A stretch of DNA of 64,000 bases from Thermanaerovibrio acidaminovorans DSM 6589 (GTDB lineage: Bacteria; Synergistota; Synergistia; Synergistales; Synergistaceae). A program made the position numbers and the translations under genes. The notes beneath the pieces were generated by a model. The model was not told where the DNA came from and did not search any database. It was given only the letters and a program-made list of their open reading frames with translations. This document shows, in pieces, positions 2,941-11,928 of the stretch. The stretch is taken from the NCBI RefSeq assembly GCF_000024905.1, contig NC_013522.1, positions 310,001 through 374,000 of the forward strand, read 5' to 3'. The first letter of the stretch is position 1. Every line of letters starts with the position of its first letter.

Positions 2941-2944
<4 letters not shown>

Positions 2945-3342
2945 AGCCCACGGTGGTGGACCACATAGGGATAGCGGTGCGGAGCATCGACGAGTCCCTG
3001 AAGTTCTGGCAGGACGTGATCGGCATAGAGTGTCACGGGGTTGAGGAGGTGGCGGAGCAGAAGGTTAAGACCGCCTTCCTGCCCCTGGGGGACACGGAGA
3101 TAGAGCTCCTGGAGGGCACCTCCGAGGACAGCCCGGTGAGCAAGTTCATCGAGGCCAAGGGTGAGGGGATCCATCACATAGCCATCCGGGTCCCCAACAT
3201 CGAGGAGGCCCTGGAGGAGCTGAAGGCCAAGGGGGTCCGCCTCATCGACGAGAAGCCCCGGATGGGGGCCGGCGGGGCCAAGATAGCCTTCGTGCACCCC
3301 AAGGCGTCCGGCGGCGTCCTGCTGGAGATAAGCGAGCGTTAA
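2941..3342 (+). CDS. mce: Methylmalonyl-CoA epimerase
   Basis: 133 residues of the vicinal-oxygen-chelate (glyoxalase-like) fold. It interconverts the (R) and (S) forms of methylmalonyl-CoA, which is needed because the mutase and decarboxylase use opposite isomers. The metal ligands expected in this family are visible: H8 in VDHIGIAV, H78 or H79 in GIHHIAIRV, and E129 in the C-terminal LLEISE. It starts inside the mutase small-subunit stop codon. The length is typical. Confidence 0.95.
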
Positions 3343-3348
3343 AGTGAT

Positions 3349-3384
3349 CCGCCGGCGGAGCGGTCCACCCGTGTCCGCCGGCGG
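3349..3384 (+). other. Intercistronic hairpin between mce and mmdA
   Basis: An 11-bp perfect inverted repeat (CCGCCGGCGGA / TCCGCCGGCGG) with a 14-nt loop sits between the epimerase stop and the decarboxylase ribosome site. It has no T tract, so it is more likely an RNA-processing, stability or partial-attenuation element than a full terminator. Confidence 0.45.
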
Positions 3385-3410
3385 GCACGCGAATATAAGG
3401 AGGTAGAGCC

Positions 3411-4970
3411 ATGGCGGAGCGAACCATCGACGAGCTGTGCGAACAGCTCCTGGCCAAGAGGAAGGCCGCCGAGGAGGGGGGCGGCAAGAAGGCCATCGAC
3501 AAGCAACACGAGAAGGGCAAGCTCACCGCCCGGGAGAGGATCGAGCGGCTCCTGGATCCGGGCAGCTTCGTGGAGATAGACGAGTTCGTGGAGCACCGGT
3601 GCTCCAACTTCGGGCTGGAGAAGACCAAGTTCCTGGGGGATGGGGTGGTAACCGGCTACGGCACGGTGGATGGCCGCATCGTCTACGTGTTCAGCCAGGA
3701 CTTCACCGTCATGGGTGGTTCCCTGGGTGAGATGCACGCCAGGAAGATATGCAAGGTGCTGGACCTGGCCCTTCAGAACGGCTGCCCCGTGATCGGCATC
3801 AACGATTCCGGCGGCGCCAGGATCCAGGAGGCGGTGGACGCCCTCTCCGGCTACGGTAGCATCTTCTTCAGGAACGTGAAGGCCAGCGGCGTGGTGCCCC
3901 AGATATCCGTCATAGCGGGTCCCTGTGCGGGCGGCGCGGTCTACAGCCCGGCACTGACGGACTTCATCTTCATGGTGGACAAGATAGGGATCATGCACAT
4001 CACAGGTCCTGCGGTCATAAAGGCGGTCACCGGTGAGGACGTGACCTCCGAGCAGATCGGCGGCGCCATGGCCCACAACACCACCTCCGGGGTGGCACAG
4101 TTCTTCGCCTCCAACGAGGACGAGTGCTTCGCCCAGGTGCGGAAGCTCCTCTCGTACCTGCCCAGCAACAACATGGAGGAGGCCCCCATTGGGGACGAGT
4201 CCGATGACCCAATGAGGATGGAAATGAGCCTCCGGGAGGCGGTGCCCACCAACCCCAACAAGGGCTACGACGTGCGGGACGTGATCCGCAAGGTGGTGGA
4301 CCACGGGGACTTCTTCGAGGTCCAGCCCCTGTGGGCCCGGAACATCGTCACCGGCTTCGCCCGGATAGGTGGTCGGGTTATCGGCGTAATAGCCAACCAG
4401 GCCAACTACATGGCGGGGTGTCTCGACATAGACGCCTCCGACAAGGCGAGCCGGCACATAAGGATCTGTGACGCCTACAACATCCCCATAGTCACCTTCG
4501 AGGACGTGCCCGGATACCTGCCGGGGCTCAACCAGGAGATGGGGGGCATCATCCGCCACGGGGCGAAGCTCCTCTACGCCTACAGCGAGGCCACCGCTCC
4601 CAAGATAACCGTGGTGCTCCGGAAGGCCTACGGGGGCTCCTACCTTGGCATGTGCAGCAAGGACCTGGGGGCCGACGTGGTGCTCGCCTGGCCCCAGGCG
4701 GAGATAGCCGTCATGGGCGCCGAGGGGGCGGCCAACATCATCTTCCGCAAGGAGATAGACGCGGCGGAGGACAAGGCGGCCATGCGGGCCCAGAAGATCG
4801 AGGAGTACCGGGAGGCCTTCGCCAACCCCTATCAGGCGGCCTCCAGGGGCTTCGTGGACCGGGTGATCCTGCCCGAGGAGACCCGGGGAGCCATATACCA
4901 GGCGCTGGTCATGTGCGACGGCAAGAGGGAGCTCCGCCCCAAGCGCAAGCACGGGATAATGCCCCACTAG
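3411..4970 (+). CDS. mmdA: Methylmalonyl-CoA decarboxylase alpha subunit (carboxyltransferase)
   Basis: 519 residues of the biotin-dependent carboxyltransferase family, with two crotonase-like halves. It moves the carboxyl group from (S)-methylmalonyl-CoA to biotin on the carrier subunit, giving propionyl-CoA. The N-half has the DSGGARIQEAV acyl-CoA site near residues 130-140, and the C-half has a second oxyanion site around the FEDVPGYLPG segment. Propionyl-CoA carboxylase beta chains look similar. The adjacent OadG-like, carrier and OadB-like genes, and the absence of a biotin carboxylase, favour the sodium-pump decarboxylase. AAGGAGG precedes the ATG. Confidence 0.93.
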   Translation: MAERTIDELCEQLLAKRKAAEEGGGKKAIDKQHEKGKLTARERIERLLDPGSFVEIDEFVEHRCSNFGLEKTKFLGDGVVTGYGTVDGRIVYVFSQDFTVMGGSLGEMHARKICKVLDLALQNGCPVIGINDSGGARIQEAVDALSGYGSIFFRNVKASGVVPQISVIAGPCAGGAVYSPALTDFIFMVDKIGIMHITGPAVIKAVTGEDVTSEQIGGAMAHNTTSGVAQFFASNEDECFAQVRKLLSYLPSNNMEEAPIGDESDDPMRMEMSLREAVPTNPNKGYDVRDVIRKVVDHGDFFEVQPLWARNIVTGFARIGGRVIGVIANQANYMAGCLDIDASDKASRHIRICDAYNIPIVTFEDVPGYLPGLNQEMGGIIRHGAKLLYAYSEATAPKITVVLRKAYGGSYLGMCSKDLGADVVLAWPQAEIAVMGAEGAANIIFRKEIDAAEDKAAMRAQKIEEYREAFANPYQAASRGFVDRVILPEETRGAIYQALVMCDGKRELRPKRKHGIMPH

Positions 4971-4983
4971 GGAGGGGATGCCA

Positions 4984-5373
4984 ATGAACGTAAGCTCCCA
5001 TTTCGTGGGCCCCGCGGGGGGTATCCTCATGTCCCTCATCGCCTTCAGCGTGGTCTTCCTGGTCATAGCGGGGCTGATGCTGATAATGATGGCCACCAAG
5101 ATGGTGGCCGGGGCGGTGGACGGCCGGTCCAAGCCGGTCCCTCCTTCCCCGTCCAAGCCTCAGTCCCCCGCGGCCCCCGCGCCTTCCGCGGCCCCAGCCC
5201 CGGGCGCCAAGGCCCAGGACGACCTGGAGCTGGTGGCGGTCGTAACCGCCGCGGTCGCCGCCTGCGCAGGTCGACCGGTGTCGGTTCGTTCCGTGAGGCC
5301 CCTGCAGGCCCGTTCCTTCGGTGGCGCCTGGAGGGCCATGGCCCGGGTTGAGGGCATGGAGGGTTTGGAGTAG
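4984..5373 (+). CDS. mmdD: Methylmalonyl-CoA decarboxylase delta subunit (OadG-like)
   Basis: 129 residues. One N-terminal membrane segment (about residues 12-35) is followed by a Pro/Ala-rich linker and a small conserved C-terminal domain ending in a WRAMARVEGME stretch. In related pumps this chain anchors the soluble carboxyltransferase to the membrane beta subunit. The ATG at 4984 is preferred, because GGAGG is eight bases upstream; the in-frame ATG at 4978 is only two bases from it. The gene lies 13 nt after mmdA. Confidence 0.82.
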   Translation: MNVSSHFVGPAGGILMSLIAFSVVFLVIAGLMLIMMATKMVAGAVDGRSKPVPPSPSKPQSPAAPAPSAAPAPGAKAQDDLELVAVVTAAVAACAGRPVSVRSVRPLQARSFGGAWRAMARVEGMEGLE

Positions 5374-5425
5374 TTTCGCTGAGAGATCCGCTGCACAAGT
5401 TAAAAAATACTAGGAGGTATGTCCT

Positions 5426-5827
5426 ATGGCCCGCATGTATCGAGTTGTAGTCAACGGAAAGGCTTACGAGGTGGAGGTGGAGGAGCTGGGCGGCGCTTCC
5501 GCCCCTGCCCCGGTGACATCCGCTCCCGCTCCTGCCCCCGTTCCCGCCCCGGCGGCGGCTCCTGCCCCCGCCCCGGCCCCTGCCGCTGCCCCTGCTCCCG
5601 CCGCCCCCGCCGGCGCCGGTGCGGTGACCGCCCCCATGCCGGGCAAGATCCTCAAGGTGATGGTCCAGCAGGGGGCCTCGGTGTCCGCCGGCCAGGCCAT
5701 AGTTATCCTGGAGGCCATGAAGATGGAGAACGAGATCTTTGCCCCTTCCGCGGGCACCGTCACCGAGGTCCGCTGCAAGGAGGGCGATTCGGTCAACACC
5801 GGCGACGTCCTGGTGGTAATATCTTAG
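5426..5827 (+). CDS. mmdC: Methylmalonyl-CoA decarboxylase gamma subunit (biotin carrier)
   Basis: 133 residues. A short N-terminal domain (1-22) leads into a long Ala/Pro linker (about 25-65), which probably acts as a flexible arm. The biotinyl domain follows, with the EAMKM signature at 96-100 making K99 the biotinylated lysine. It carries CO2 from the alpha subunit to the membrane beta subunit. AGGAGGT lies seven bases before the ATG. The low-complexity linker DNA is repetitive but is coding. Confidence 0.95.
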
Positions 5828-5848
5828 GCTCCCCGGGGAGGGAGAGGG

Positions 5849-6973
5849 ATGGAACTCTACGTAGCGGCCCTAAAGGGGCTGATAGATCAGTCGGGTTTGG
5901 TGGGGCTCACGGGGGGCAACGTCATAATGATCGTTGTCGCCCTGGTGCTCCTTTACTTGGCGATAGCCAAGGGGTTTGAGCCCCTGCTGCTGACCCCCAT
6001 AGCCTTCGGGTGTCTCATCGTGAACCTTCCCCTGTCGGGGATAATGGATCCCGGGGGGTTCCTGTACTACGTGTCCTTCGGGACGAGACATGAGATCTAC
6101 CCGATAATAATCTTCATGGGGATAGGGGCTCTGACCGACTTCGGCCCGCTCCTGGCCAACCCCATAACGTTCCTGCTTGGGGCTGCGGCCCAGCTGGGGG
6201 TATTCGTGGCGGTGGTGGGGGCCATGTTCCTGGGCTTCAACATCCGGGAGGCGGCGGCCATAGGGATCATAGGCGGAGCCGACGGTCCCACCTCCATCTA
6301 CCTCTGCATGAAGCTGGCCCCCAAGATAGTCGGCGCCGTGGCGGTGGCGGCCTACAGCTACATGTCCCTGGTGCCCCTGATCCAGCCGCCGGTGATCAAA
6401 CTGTTCACTTCCAAGGCGGACAGGGGCATAAGGATGGATCAGTTGCGCCCGGTCACCAAGACGGAGAGGGTGCTCTTCCCCATAATAAGCACCATTGCCT
6501 GTGGGCTAATCCTGCCCCCGGCGGTTCCCCTGGTGGGGATGCTCATGTTCGGCAACCTGCTCAGGGAGTGTGGTTGCACCGAGAGGCTTAACCAGGCGGC
6601 CCAGAATGAGATCCTCAACGCCACTACCATATTCCTGGGGATCACCGTGGGGGCCACCATGGAGGCCGAGTCGTTCCTCACCTTGGCCACCATAAAGATA
6701 ATAGCCCTAGGTCTGGTGGCCTTCGCCTTCAGCACCGCCGGCGGCTGCCTGTTCGGCCAGGTCATGAAGGTCCTCTCGGGGGGCAAGATAAACCCCATCA
6801 TCGGCGCCGCGGGGGTATCGGCGGTCCCCATGGCAGCTCGAGTGTGCCAGCGGGTGGTACAGCAGGAGTTCCCGGGGAGCTACGTGCTGATGCACGCCAT
6901 GGGACCCAACGTGGCGGGTGTCATAGGCACCGCCGTGGCGGCGGGTGCCATGTTGACCCTGCTGACCCGGTAG
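5849..6973 (+). CDS. mmdB: Methylmalonyl-CoA decarboxylase beta subunit, Na+ pump
   Basis: 374 residues, strongly hydrophobic with about ten membrane segments. It decarboxylates carboxybiotin and exports Na+, which makes the pathway energy-conserving. The conserved GGADGPTSIYL segment puts the key aspartate at D145, equivalent to the essential Asp of oxaloacetate decarboxylase beta subunits. The length matches the OadB/MmdB/GcdB family; the neighbouring genes decide the substrate. It is the last gene of the operon and is followed by a strong hairpin. Confidence 0.95.
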   Translation: MELYVAALKGLIDQSGLVGLTGGNVIMIVVALVLLYLAIAKGFEPLLLTPIAFGCLIVNLPLSGIMDPGGFLYYVSFGTRHEIYPIIIFMGIGALTDFGPLLANPITFLLGAAAQLGVFVAVVGAMFLGFNIREAAAIGIIGGADGPTSIYLCMKLAPKIVGAVAVAAYSYMSLVPLIQPPVIKLFTSKADRGIRMDQLRPVTKTERVLFPIISTIACGLILPPAVPLVGMLMFGNLLRECGCTERLNQAAQNEILNATTIFLGITVGATMEAESFLTLATIKIIALGLVAFAFSTAGGCLFGQVMKVLSGGKINPIIGAAGVSAVPMAARVCQRVVQQEFPGSYVLMHAMGPNVAGVIGTAVAAGAMLTLLTR

Positions 6974-7121: not shown

Positions 7122-8606
7122 TCATGGGTGGAAGGAGGGGACCACGGGATCCCCCGCGGTGGGGAAGTCCTTTATGTGCTTCCCCGAGGCGGCCAGGAGG
7201 AAGGAGTCCGCCCACCAGAACACGTCGTGTCTTCGGACCGCATGCCGCAGTATCTTCATCCGCCGGCGCTTATCCCCTTCGGGCATGACCAGCGCCTGGT
7301 AGATGGCCTCCGCCACGCCTTCCCGGTCGTTGGGGTTAACCAGTATGGCCCCCCTCTGGAGCTGGCAGGCGGCGCCGGCGAACTCGCTGAGCACCAGTGT
7401 CCCCGATAGGTCCGAGTGGGCTGCACAGTACTCCTTGGAGACCAGGTTCATGCCGTCCTTCCTGGGGGTCACGAGTCCCACGTCCGCCGCCAGGTAGTGG
7501 GCCACCAGTTCCTCCTGGGGCATGGACCGGGACATGAAGATGACGGGCACCCAGTCGTCCTGGGAGAATCGGCCGTTTATGGAGGAGATTCGCCTCTCCA
7601 CCCTGTCCCTAAGCTCCGCGTACTCCCGGACCGTCTCCCGGCTTGGCACCAGTAGCTGGAGGAACGTGACATTCTTGAGCATCTCCGGGTGTCTCTCCAG
7701 CATCAGCTCGAAGGCGGTGAGCCTCTCGGGTATCCCCTTGGTGTAGTCCAGCCGGTCCACGCCGAAGATGATCTTCCTACCCCGGTGGTTATTCTTTATC
7801 TCCGCCGCCCTGGCCCTGACGGCGGGATGCCTGGAGAGCCGGTCGAAGTGACGGAAGTCTATGCCTATGGGCAGCGCCCCCACCGAGACCATCCGACTCC
7901 CCAGGGTTATGGTTCCCCAGTTCCCCCTTCTGCGCACCAGCGCGTCCTTCTCGAAGATCTTGACGCACTGGACGAAGTTCCTCACCTCCCGAACGGTGTG
8001 AAAGCCTATGAAGTGGAACTCCAGGAGGGCCCTTATGATCCTATCCCGCCAGGGGAGCTTGAGGTATATGTCCGGGGACGGGAAGGGTATGTGGAGGAAG
8101 AAGGCGCATCGTCGATGGAGTCTCATGTCCTTCAGGTGGAGGGCCACCTCCATCAGTTGGTAGTCGTGGACCCATATGAGGTCCTTCTCGTCCGTGTGGC
8201 TCGCCAGGGTGGAGGCGAAGAGCCGGTTCACCTCCTCGTAGGCCTTGAAGTACCTCCCGTCGAAGTCGCATAGGGACAGGAAGTCGTGGAAGAGGGGCCA
8301 TATGACCGAGTTGGAGGCCCCCTCGTAGTAGAGCCGGTGCTGTTCCTCGGTGAGGTGGACCGGGATCAGCTCGAAGGGGCTCTCCTGTCGGGTCTCCGCC
8401 AGGATCCGATCCACCTCCTCCGCTCTGGCACCTGGGACCGTGCCCGGACATCCTATCCACTTCCCCCCCCTTAGGGTCAGCACCGGCTTGAGGGCGGTGA
8501 CCAATCCCCCCGCCCCGTGGATGACTTTTAGCTCCCCGTCCTCCATGAAGAGCACTATGGGGAGCCGGTGTGAGGCTATTACCAACCTGGACGGTCTATT
8601 CGGCAC
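7122..8606 (-). CDS. otsA: Alpha,alpha-trehalose-phosphate synthase (OtsA, GT20)
   Basis: 494 residues. It joins glucose from a nucleotide sugar to glucose-6-phosphate to make trehalose-6-phosphate. GT20 landmarks are present: an N-terminal SHRLPIV segment, [10 protein letters not shown], the [14 protein letters not shown] sugar-phosphate region and a C-terminal [10 protein letters not shown] nucleotide-sugar site. The GTG start overlaps the otsB end by 11 nt, and an AAAGGAG ribosome site lies inside otsB, so the two are coupled. The product goes straight to OtsB. It is the last gene of the minus-strand trehalose operon. Confidence 0.95.
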
Positions 8607-9438
8607 ACATCTTCACTCCTTTCCGCATCTTCCCTTCCAGCTCCCGGTGAATTTGCCGGAGGAAGTCCAGCAGCTCCTCCGGGGGCTTTATGTGGCATTG
8701 GGCAATCGATCGTCTGCCCTTTGGGTGGACCAGGATGGATAGCCCCCGTTCTCCCAGGGTCTCGAAGGCGTCCTCGTCGGTGGTGTCGTCCCCCAGTAGA
8801 GTCACCAGATGTCCATTTGGGGTTTCCTGGAGGAGCCGCTCCACCGCCAGGCCCTTATGGATCCCCGGGGCCCTGAGCTCGAAGCCCCCGTTGAAGTGCC
8901 TGAAGGACAGCCCCCGGTGAACCAGAGCCTCCCAGGAGCGGGCCAGCTGGGGTATCAGGGGGCGCAGGTCCTGGGGCATGGACCTGAGGTGGACCTCCAC
9001 CGAAGCCGCCTTCATCTCCACCATCTCGGGGGGCAGCAGCTCCAGCGCCTCCCGGTGGGCGGCGTTGAGGAGATGCTCTACCCACCGGGGGATCTCCTGG
9101 CTGCTCCGGGTGCCGTCTGGCATCAGACGCTCCGCCCCGTGGCAGCCGAATATGTCCGCCGGGCGGAGCCCCAGGAGAGTCGGTATCTGGTGGGCCCTCC
9201 TGCCGGATATGATCGCCAGCCGGGCCCCAAGGTTCATGAGGGATTCCAACGCCTCCCTGATCCCTGGCCAGGGATGGGCCCGGTCTCTTTCGGCGGTCAA
9301 GGGGGCCAGGGTCCCGTCGTAGTCCAGGAACAGGGATAGCCCCCCGGATCTTCGAAGCTGGTTCCAGAACCAGGCGGGTATGCCCCTTGGGGGGATGGTG
9401 GAGGGGATATTGACGGTTGATGCTCCGGTGCTGATCAA
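8596..9438 (-). CDS. otsB: Trehalose-6-phosphate phosphatase
   Basis: 280 residues of the HAD superfamily. It hydrolyses trehalose-6-phosphate to trehalose. The nucleophile motif is D39-Y-D41-G-T, and motif II is the IISGR segment. The C-terminal GDDTTDEDAF supplies the metal-binding aspartates. The start is placed at a TTG whose TG is shared with the TGA stop of the upstream treT gene, with a GGGGGTGA ribosome site. A longer reading frame exists upstream but runs antisense to nothing conserved and simply overlaps treT. Confidence 0.93.
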   Translation of the reverse strand: MISTGASTVNIPSTIPPRGIPAWFWNQLRRSGGLSLFLDYDGTLAPLTAERDRAHPWPGIREALESLMNLGARLAIISGRRAHQIPTLLGLRPADIFGCHGAERLMPDGTRSSQEIPRWVEHLLNAAHREALELLPPEMVEMKAASVEVHLRSMPQDLRPLIPQLARSWEALVHRGLSFRHFNGGFELRAPGIHKGLAVERLLQETPNGHLVTLLGDDTTDEDAFETLGERGLSILVHPKGRRSIAQCHIKPPEELLDFLRQIHRELEGKMRKGVKMCAE

Positions 9439-10670
9439 GCGGTCACCCCCGTTTCCTCCATCTGGAGGCAAGCCAGGGTGGTCATCAGGTTCCTGAGCTG
9501 CCGGGTTATGAGGAAGTGGTCCCTCACGTGGGAGTGTCCCGCCTCCCCCATTGACCTCATCATCCTGGGGTCCTGGAGCAGCTGGCGGATCCTCAGCGCC
9601 GCACCCTCGGGGGATCTGACCCGGAAGCCCGTGTGGTAGTCGATCACCTGGAGCCTTATGCCCCCCGTGTCCCCCCCTATGACCGGCTTCCTCTTCCACA
9701 GTCCCTCGGAGACGGTGAGGCCGAAGCCCTCCCGTGTGGACTTCTGCAGGATCACGTGGCTGATCCTCTGTAGGGCGTTGATCGTAAGGTGTGCGTCCGA
9801 CGGGAGGGAGAGCACGTGGATGTCCGGGTCATCCCCCGCCGCCTCCAGGGTCTCCCTGAGCACCAAGGCCCCCTCCGGGTCGTCGGTGGCGTCCCCCCCC
9901 GCCAGGACCAGCTGGAGGTTCTCGTGGTAGGCCTTGGCCATCCGGTAGGCCCTTATGACCCCCACCGGGTCCTTGAACCGGTCGTAGCGGGAGATCTGGG
10001 TTATTATGGGCCTGGTGGGGTCCAGGTTGAATTCCTCGTAGACCCTATTCAGCTCCTGGTCTGAGAGGTCCCGGTTCTTGTAGCTCAAGGGGTCTATGCC
10101 CGGGGGGATTATGTACTGGGGGTGGGGAAGGGGCTGGGCGAAGTCCACCAGGGAGAAGACGCTGGCATGGTAGCGCCCCACCAGGCCCTTTATGAAGTTC
10201 CAGACCGATCGGTTGGGGCGGCTCACATCGATGTGGCACCGCCATATCCACTTGCCCCTCCTTTGGGGGATCATGGATAGCAGCGGGGCCGGCTGTGGGT
10301 CGTGGATCACCACGAAGTCCGCCTCCTCCAGTAGGCCTGCGAGCCGCTGGGCGTTCTCCCGGTTGGTCTCCATGAAGACCTCCTTCATGGTGGGCGACAG
10401 GTCCTGCTCCGCCCCCTGGAGGGAGTTGTGGATCAGCTTGGTGGCCTTGAAGAAGTCCTCGGTGCCGGTGATGACCTCCCATCGGGCGTCAATGCCGAGC
10501 TCGCGCATTAGGGGCACGAAGTTCTCCAGGATCTCCGCCACCCCTCCCCCGACCCGGGTGGAGTTCAAGTGAACCACCGACCTGTCCTTCAGCATCTCCC
10601 CCAGCCTCCTGAGGTGCATGAGGGGGCCGGGGCCTATCACCGGCTCGTAGTCCGTTATGCTGAGGCTCAT
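9435..10670 (-). CDS. treT: Trehalose synthase TreT (trehalose glycosyltransferring synthase, GT4)
   Basis: 411 residues. TreT makes trehalose directly from a nucleotide-diphosphoglucose and glucose, reversibly. The signature is strong: EPVIG near the start, HLNSTRVGGGVAEIL (about residues 34-48), VPLMRELGIDARWEV, and the C-terminal KSTREGFGLTVSEGLWK nucleotide-sugar site. Its place before otsB and otsA gives one operon both the TreT and the OtsAB routes. It overlaps its neighbours by 4 nt on both sides (ATGA upstream, TTGA downstream). Confidence 0.9.
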   Translation of the reverse strand: MSLSITDYEPVIGPGPLMHLRRLGEMLKDRSVVHLNSTRVGGGVAEILENFVPLMRELGIDARWEVITGTEDFFKATKLIHNSLQGAEQDLSPTMKEVFMETNRENAQRLAGLLEEADFVVIHDPQPAPLLSMIPQRRGKWIWRCHIDVSRPNRSVWNFIKGLVGRYHASVFSLVDFAQPLPHPQYIIPPGIDPLSYKNRDLSDQELNRVYEEFNLDPTRPIITQISRYDRFKDPVGVIRAYRMAKAYHENLQLVLAGGDATDDPEGALVLRETLEAAGDDPDIHVLSLPSDAHLTINALQRISHVILQKSTREGFGLTVSEGLWKRKPVIGGDTGGIRLQVIDYHTGFRVRSPEGAALRIRQLLQDPRMMRSMGEAGHSHVRDHFLITRQLRNLMTTLACLQMEETGVTA

Positions 10671-11344
10671 TGCTCATCCCCCTCCCAGGGCAGGGACTTC
10701 CGGATGGCGGAGTTGATCTTCTCCCGGATCTCCCCCAGGGTAAGGAGCGCGGTGTCGATCCGGCGGAGCCTTGCCCTCAAGTTGGCGGTCAGCTCCCCGA
10801 ATCCGGAGAGCCAGGCGGAGAAGTCGTCCTCATGTCCCGGGGTCCTGCGGACCGCGTCGATCACGTGGTAGAAGATGCTGTTGGTGTCTATGGTCCTTAT
10901 GGCCTCTCGGAACTCCTTCAGCGTGGAGGCGGTCTGCCCGGTGTCGAAGACCAGCATCCTGGAGTCGGTGAAGAAGAAGGGGTGCGATGCCCTGGACCAG
11001 GCCATGGCGTCGTCCCCCTCGAGCCGCCGGTCCAGGACGGAGATTATCTCCTCCCTCAGGGAGTCCAGATCCTCGAAGTCCTTGGGTGACAGGGCGCTCA
11101 GCTTCTCCGCCATACCCCGGTCCCTCAGGGTGGAGGCCACCCAGTTGGCTAGGTCGTTGGTGTACTCCCTCTCACCCAGTTGGGGCCTCATCTTCCAGCC
11201 CCAGAAGTGGGTGTGAAGGCTCCCCTCCGGGGCCCGCCGGACGCAGTCCCGGAGCTCCGACAGGGTCCTGGCCACCAGACCGGTGCTCACTATGGCCATC
11301 TCGCAACTGTGGAAGCGGAAGGGCTCCATCGGTTCAACGGTCAT
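10667..11344 (-). CDS. DUF5752 family protein, first gene of the trehalose operon
   Basis: 225 residues, soluble and mostly helical. A conserved-looking N-terminal block (FRFHSCEMAIVSTG, then HTHFWGWKMRP) and the ANWVASTLRD segment match what is remembered of DUF5752. That family is often found beside glycosyltransferases of trehalose or sucrose metabolism. No catalytic motif is evident. The ATG at 11344 is favoured by GGGGGG about seven bases upstream; a TTG at 11350 has poor spacing. Its 4-nt overlap with treT suggests a stoichiometric partner or regulator of that enzyme. The function is unknown. Confidence 0.6.
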   Translation of the reverse strand: MTVEPMEPFRFHSCEMAIVSTGLVARTLSELRDCVRRAPEGSLHTHFWGWKMRPQLGEREYTNDLANWVASTLRDRGMAEKLSALSPKDFEDLDSLREEIISVLDRRLEGDDAMAWSRASHPFFFTDSRMLVFDTGQTASTLKEFREAIRTIDTNSIFYHVIDAVRRTPGHEDDFSAWLSGFGELTANLRARLRRIDTALLTLGEIREKINSAIRKSLPWEGDEQ

Positions 11345-11480
11345 GTCCAATCCCCCCTCTGTGTGGCCCCCGTGAAGTGGCGGCTATGCGGCTGACGTTC
11401 CGATCGTGGACGTCCTGTGGGGAAGGTTTGAACCGTGGAGTACCTGGCGTGATCGAGGAGGCCATCTTCTGGATATTGAG

Positions 11481-11507
11481 ATTATCATGTATCATCTTGA
11501 CGGGCAA
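11481..11507 (-). promoter_or_regulatory. Possible promoter of the trehalose operon
   Basis: On the minus strand, TTGCCC and GATAAT are separated by 15 nt, shorter than ideal. The -10 has a T-G one base upstream (CATGATAAT). It would leave a leader of roughly 130 nt before the DUF5752 gene. Confidence 0.35.
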
Positions 11508-11565
11508 GGTTAAATGGCCTTCCGGGCGTGGTCAAGGTCAAATTTAATCGAAGCGGGTGGTGAAC

Positions 11566-11928
11566 ATGGGGGAGAACACCGTTTTCCTGGCCGCCTACGC
11601 GAGGCTGCCCCAGGACATAGCGGCCTATGGGCTCTACAAGAGCGTGGGGGTCTATGCGGAGGTGGAGGTGGATACGGGGGTGATAATCGAGGCGGACGTT
11701 TCGTTTTACTCCCAAGTGTCCATAAACATGATAAGGGCCATCCTGAAGGGGAAGAACATCGTTCTCGACCGGGAGGTCATACTGAAGGCCTTCGAGAGTC
11801 GCTACTGGGGGGGCGGACGCAAGGCGGTGATCACCGCGGTTAAGCGCCTGTTCGAGCGGTACGACGAGGTGATGGAGCAGCTCGAGAGGGACCCTATTCC
11901 GGACCTCACCGACGAGTACCGTCTGTGA
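11566..11928 (+). CDS. DUF3870 family protein
   Basis: 120 residues. The ordered features FLAAYARLPQDIAAYGLYKSVGV, then VDTGVIIEADVSF, then a C-terminal ESRYWGGGRKAVITAVKRL match the small DUF3870 family, which has no known biochemical role. The start is uncertain: ATG 11566 has a GGGTGG five bases upstream, while two GTG codons at 11557 and 11560 are also in frame. It is a single-gene unit transcribed away from the trehalose operon. Confidence 0.6.
   Translation: MGENTVFLAAYARLPQDIAAYGLYKSVGVYAEVEVDTGVIIEADVSFYSQVSINMIRAILKGKNIVLDREVILKAFESRYWGGGRKAVITAVKRLFERYDEVMEQLERDPIPDLTDEYRL

Follow-up and report, generated by a model that had tools for sequence, protein, structure and literature searches.

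In the otsBA operon of Escherichia coli, the trehalose-6-phosphate phosphatase OtsB and the trehalose-6-phosphate synthase OtsA are encoded by neighbouring genes, with neither the trehalose glycosyltransferring synthase TreT nor a protein of the uncharacterised family DUF5752. The same adjacency of OtsB and OtsA, also cited in a passage of PMC3634074, is found in Thermanaerovibrio acidaminovorans DSM 6589 (Synergistota), in a stretch of 64,000 nucleotides (contig NC_013522.1, positions 310,001 to 374,000; the whole stretch analysed is called the window here), as part of a four-gene operon that encodes DUF5752, TreT, OtsB and OtsA in that order. Several trehalose routes also occur side by side in Sulfolobus acidocaldarius, for which passages of PMC7688234 give TreT, TreY/TreZ and a GT4-type trehalose-6-phosphate synthase; judging from their gene numbers the routes there lie at different loci, and the synthase belongs to GT4, whereas that of the window belongs to GT20. 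The control genome of S. acidocaldarius matched both TreT_GT1 and DUF5752, and that of E. coli matched neither. Thermoproteus tenax, like the window organism, has a DUF5752 protein, OrfY (PDB 4CSO), but its fused trehalose-6-phosphate synthase/phosphatase (TPSP) is placed in another operon in a passage of PMC3634074, whereas the window TreT is accompanied by otsB and otsA as two distinct genes. The T. tenax TPSP-GT complex, which combines this fusion with a PimA-like GT4 activator from one operon, likewise differs from the window, where OtsA and OtsB are separate proteins and the GT4 protein is TreT. The reading that we favour, with somewhat better than even confidence, is that the operon consists of a conserved DUF5752-TreT cassette joined by OtsB and OtsA, in which DUF5752 would be a protein-level partner that binds and tunes TreT, with OtsAB as a second branch that uses a different acceptor.

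The linkage of DUF5752 to TreT was followed in three samples. A TreT alignment run against 84,980 species genomes retrieved at least 588 relatives, the best 80 of which were kept as loci and are biased toward the window's TreT; the less biased samples comprised 185 Synergistota genomes and 297 genomes drawn evenly from the larger Geomobilimonas phylum. Of the 80 loci, 78 have DUF5752 immediately upstream of TreT. These represent 18 named phyla (names for metagenome-assembled genomes come from record titles and may be wrong, and 4 of the 78 carry no phylum name); in the other two loci TreT starts at a contig edge. Among the Synergistota genomes, 37 contain DUF5752 and 47 a TreT above the cut-off; the two genes are neighbours in 36 of the 37, and in the last (G023) DUF5752 is cut by a contig end. 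In the Geomobilimonas phylum, TreT lies directly downstream of full-length DUF5752 at 110 of 111 places and is present in all 105 genomes with full-length DUF5752. TreT without DUF5752 was found 11 times in Synergistota and at 36 of the 147 TreT places in the Geomobilimonas phylum. Among 101 distinct pairs, the stop of DUF5752 overlaps the start of TreT in 77, and in 46 the overlap is exactly 4 nt long; the 101 pairs remained after removal of identical TreTs, with start codons chosen by a Shine-Dalgarno rule and with outlying gaps of -1254 and +342 retained. DUF5752 also keeps to TreT where OtsA or OtsB lies upstream (L096, L111, L112, L115, L116, L118 and L125; also L013-L015). The gene order of the operon is conserved far beyond chance, and the coupling of DUF5752 to TreT, which the preliminary description had drawn from the window alone and proposed to follow across Synergistota, is borne out in that phylum and well outside it. 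A search of open-access literature for DUF5752, for OrfY with T. tenax and for Saci_1826/1828, subscription papers being outside its scope, returned no description of this link.

The preliminary description had also called the co-translation of two trehalose routes unusual, a judgement that cannot be kept, as the contiguous order DUF5752-TreT-OtsB-OtsA is present in 26 of the 80 loci, from 11 named phyla. OtsA lies near TreT in 41 loci, OtsA and/or OtsB within 5 kb of it in 46, and TreY or TreZ near it in 15; the locus is a genuine trehalose-synthesis operon and belongs to a type of cluster that is widespread. The proximity of OtsA and/or OtsB, together with an MscS channel gene near TreT in 12 loci, could also mean that the window TreT is an activator of OtsA that provides no independent route, with DUF5752 as part of that complex; a precedent is the T. 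tenax msc-gt-tpsp operon, whose GT4 protein activates TPSP according to a passage of PMC3634074. An activating role of this kind is quite improbable for the window TreT: it keeps its motifs, 34 of the 80 loci contain neither OtsA nor OtsB in the stretch examined around TreT, and the same passage presents the T. tenax activator as another sort of GT4 protein, one that is PimA-like.

The existence of four overlapping genes for DUF5752, TreT, OtsB and OtsA, as first described, is upheld by their open frames, Pfam families and intact motifs. The window TreT contains the full-length domain set, with PF21269 at the N-terminus and the GT4 domain PF00534 (E 1.2e-19) at the C-terminus, and the motifs SR.D..K at 227, EGFGLTV.E at 314, WRCHID at 143 and HDPQP at 123 are intact, the first two of which we take to be the GT4 catalytic motifs; a catalytically degenerate TreT, which would have undermined the preliminary description, is ruled out by these motifs. 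Its best solved match is 6ZJ4 (420 bits, residues 8-400 aligned), presumably the entry of the Thermoproteus uzoniensis TreT, with which it shares the checked motifs, and the TreT of Pyrococcus horikoshii (2X6Q, 365 bits) has the same family and motifs. The T. uzoniensis structure is named in a passage of the review PMC11046441. The window TreT scores below the cut-off of the NCBIfam equivalog NF041139 (407 against 775 bits), a Thermococcales model; because the model is lineage-specific, this miss, on sequence grounds, excludes the Thermococcales subgroup and not TreT identity. Identity with the GT4-type trehalose-6-phosphate synthase of S. acidocaldarius, which a passage of PMC7688234 describes as distantly homologous to TreT and as occurring chiefly in Sulfolobales, was ruled out, the best matches being true TreTs. 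OtsB passes TIGR00685 (86.6 bits, cut-off 68.05) and retains the HAD motifs DYDGTLAP, IISGR and GDDTTDEDAF. OtsA has a GT20 domain with intact conserved motifs and matches 5JIJ (E 5.5e-105); its TIGR02400 score of 511.4 bits is under the equivalog cut-off (564.85 bits) and exceeds its score as a glucosylglycerol-phosphate synthase (349.7 bits), and it was filed as an OtsA-like GT20 protein of predicted activity.

DUF5752 itself is, judged from its alignment, a tandem duplication, since one half of the family alignment matches the other (probability 99.7). The repeats are ~100 aa each, about residues 6-115 and 120-217, and each carries an H..(N/D)D..W motif. Across the 85 family sequences compared, out of a set of 87 (L027 and L029 omitted, L001 replaced by the window protein; the set of 87 was built without L095 and L018), H46, W68, E80, H160 and D174 are invariant and N63, D64, R167, W178 and D197 nearly so. 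Such residues could form a site, and the linkage to TreT would support equally strongly a small pathway enzyme or a chaperone, for example one acting on glucose or folding TreT. We regard that as improbable, given that no known enzyme fold was matched (which argues against such a role without excluding it), that one locus, L046, has TreT without DUF5752, and that a single repeat recurs in proteins of regulatory appearance. In these proteins (L131:510-3704, L132:40-2313 and L133:280-3489), found via weak matches, one DUF5752 repeat precedes a PPDK_N ATP-grasp domain; in L131 and L133, which are about 1,070 aa long, a response-regulator domain stands in front of the repeat, and L132 is cut by a contig end. 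To our knowledge this combination has not been described, and it points to a regulatory module.

The predicted DUF5752 model (mean pLDDT 94.4) superposes on T. tenax OrfY (4CSO) with Z 22.6 and rmsd 2.7 over 207 residues, the next row being at Z 5.3; 4CSO, also a sequence match (E 1.7e-19), is the only solved relative, and the sole one above noise among the fold matches listed. Its depositors label OrfY a transcription factor, in contrast to the protein-level partner favoured here, and DUF5752 is the first gene of the window operon, as might be expected of a DNA-binding protein that regulates its own operon from that position. This seems rather unlikely to us, as the family is acidic in 85 of 85 sequences (median pI 5.0, charge about -12), DUF5752 is tied to TreT and not to the first position of operons, its repeat is present too in a multidomain protein where Pfam found no helix-turn-helix, and no DNA-binding fold stood above noise among the fold matches listed, which counts against DNA binding without excluding it.

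TreTs with and without DUF5752 are distinct kinds. When the presence or absence of DUF5752 is mapped on a tree built from 143 TreTs (the distant fused TreTs L168, L170 and L171 omitted, the contig-edge L085 and L117 unlabelled), 3 changes suffice, compared with 17.2 in shuffles, a result in favour of a DUF5752-TreT partnership. The TreTs that lack DUF5752 make up a clade of their own, which includes the P. horikoshii enzyme and not the window TreT; that of T. uzoniensis falls between the two groups, beside L158, which has DUF5752, both being long branches of unsure placement. Only six positions separate the clades, too few for interface mapping, in a comparison that also omitted L046, L158, L085 and L117. 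The window TreT clusters with those of families f5 and f6 in its order, and the TreTs of the two remaining genomes from its genus fall elsewhere; a horizontal exchange of the DUF5752-TreT cassette is possible. That TreT works in one reversible step, as first described, is doubtful as regards reversibility, since the reversible P. horikoshii enzyme belongs to the clade without DUF5752 and passages of PMC7688234 and PMC3634074 call the T. tenax TreT unidirectional. The TreT of Thermococcus litoralis is reported, in a passage of the review PMC6861944, to accept only ADP in the transfer from trehalose. As a hypothesis based on very few enzymes, DUF5752 may track the direction of TreT.

Several observations weigh against a dedicated DUF5752-TreT partnership. 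At a single place (G425:C198; L175:906-4861), full-length DUF5752 occurs without TreT, between TreY-like and GlgC-like genes named from their sequences. L046 (823-3348) holds the only TreT inside the DUF5752 clade that has no DUF5752; it has neither OtsA nor OtsB nearby, adjoins a phosphoenolpyruvate-synthase-like gene and ends the longest branch of all (1.04, median 0.16). This TreT has lost DUF5752 and evolves fast, and the length of its branch is itself a point in favour of the partnership. DUF5752 distances correlate with those of OtsA (r 0.77) as closely as with those of TreT (r 0.70) in 24 of 26 loci, so that co-inheritance is not specific to the DUF5752-TreT pair. In L027:718-2652, a single 645-aa open frame holds DUF5752 and TreT, joined over a run of nine G; this frame is doubtful, and a slippery site or a slip in sequencing may lie behind it. 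A chaperone, an enzyme or a transcription factor would likewise be compatible with the linkage and the coupling. Furthermore, OtsA adjoins TreT in 6 of the 7 Synergistota loci fetched that have TreT but no DUF5752, an observation that lends no support to the earlier suggestion that DUF5752 steers the choice of pathway.

Other variants of these genes were seen among the loci. Apparent DUF5752-TreT fusions in L012, and likewise in L165-L167, were rejected because the long frame is an overlapping open frame. In L095, which was not used, an in-frame stop that is probably an assembly error splits DUF5752 between its repeats. A second cluster in the Acidobacteria genome G195 (L134:3970-6451) has an open otsA frame, a broken DUF5752 frame and a TreT with a large internal deletion; that DUF5752 and TreT have decayed together while otsA is open speaks for their partnership. 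Proteins of 1,314-1,335 aa (L168:297-4238, L169:1783-5766 and L170:1814-5818) carry a TreT-like GT4 domain at the C-terminus (shown by Pfam for L169), and their long N-terminal part, unnamed by Pfam in L169, reads like a GT2-type glycosyltransferase. No DUF5752 was found on viral contigs and plasmids at the limits used. A plasmid of the haloarchaeon Natrialba magadii carries a TreT homologue (L178:5962-7215) whose neighbours are helix-turn-helix and universal stress protein genes; neither the annotation nor a search showed a DUF5752 gene next to it.

Table 1. Genes of the trehalose operon and the adjoining intergenic gap, in window coordinates.
Feature	Position	Strand	Remarks
DUF5752 (PF19027), OrfY-family protein, 225 aa	10667-11344	minus	ATG start; full-length Pfam match, E 6.5e-72, 241.7 bits
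TreT, GT4 trehalose glycosyltransferring synthase, 411 aa	9435-10670	minus	ATG start within DUF5752 stop; TreT_GT1 PF21269 E 2.4e-57
OtsB, HAD-type trehalose-6-phosphate phosphatase, 280 aa	8596-9438	minus	TTG start over TreT stop; Trehalose_PPase PF02358 E 9.2e-23
OtsA, GT20 trehalose-6-phosphate synthase (predicted), 494 aa	7122-8606	minus	GTG start 11 nt inside otsB; Glyco_transf_20 PF00982 E 2.8e-132
212-base gap between DUF5752 and divergent DUF3870 gene	11345-11556		expected promoter place of the operon

The four genes of the window operon (Table 1) run head to tail from 11344 down to 7122, with overlaps of 4 nt between DUF5752 and TreT (ATGA), 4 nt between TreT and OtsB (TTGA) and 11 nt between OtsB and OtsA; all four frames are open and preceded by Shine-Dalgarno-like stretches. 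An OtsB start at 9699, given by a mechanical list of open reading frames, lies far inside TreT and was judged too early, the TTG at 9438 being preferred as it fits the TreT stop. A sigma-70 scan gave no promoter-like match in the gap upstream of DUF5752, and an Rfam search of the window gave no match. The divergent gene that adjoins the operon (11557-11928) belongs to the uncharacterised family DUF3870. On the other side, a convergent operon at 2941-6973 resembles a sodium-pumping methylmalonyl-CoA decarboxylase with an epimerase, an assignment tested for the OAD_beta subunit only.

In the favoured reading, translational coupling would cause DUF5752 and TreT to be made in step, and the duplicated DUF5752 protein would bind TreT and gate or stabilise it upon a signal. 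TreT would use a nucleotide-glucose as donor and free glucose as acceptor, working most probably in the direction of synthesis, and OtsA would transfer glucose from the same donor to glucose 6-phosphate, after which OtsB would remove the phosphate; the donor and acceptor roles of TreT and OtsA are established enzymology of the two families. Because the two branches would share a donor and differ in acceptor, the operon would be able to make trehalose from either the glucose or the glucose 6-phosphate pool. The source genome, a single contig of 1.85 Mb, has one weak GH13 match, and for this reason TreS or TreY/TreZ routes are not evident in it, other trehalose genes not having been searched for.

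Through this linkage, an uncharacterised family with one solved structure gains a near-universal partner, and its role is now testable. What merits a second look is the DUF5752-TreT cassette, together with the contrast that it makes to the transcription-factor label on 4CSO, which the linkage calls into question. Far more tentatively, DUF5752 might be a small regulatory domain of trehalose metabolism, its duplicated form being the partner of TreT in bacteria, and probably in crenarchaea too, and its single-repeat form being part of response-regulator/PPDK_N proteins. By binding a metabolite or phospho-signal, the domain would determine when NDP-glucose is committed to trehalose. DUF5752 may also serve as a genomic marker that tells synthetic TreTs from reversible ones, a distinction that has been reported for the T. 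tenax and Thermococcales enzymes.
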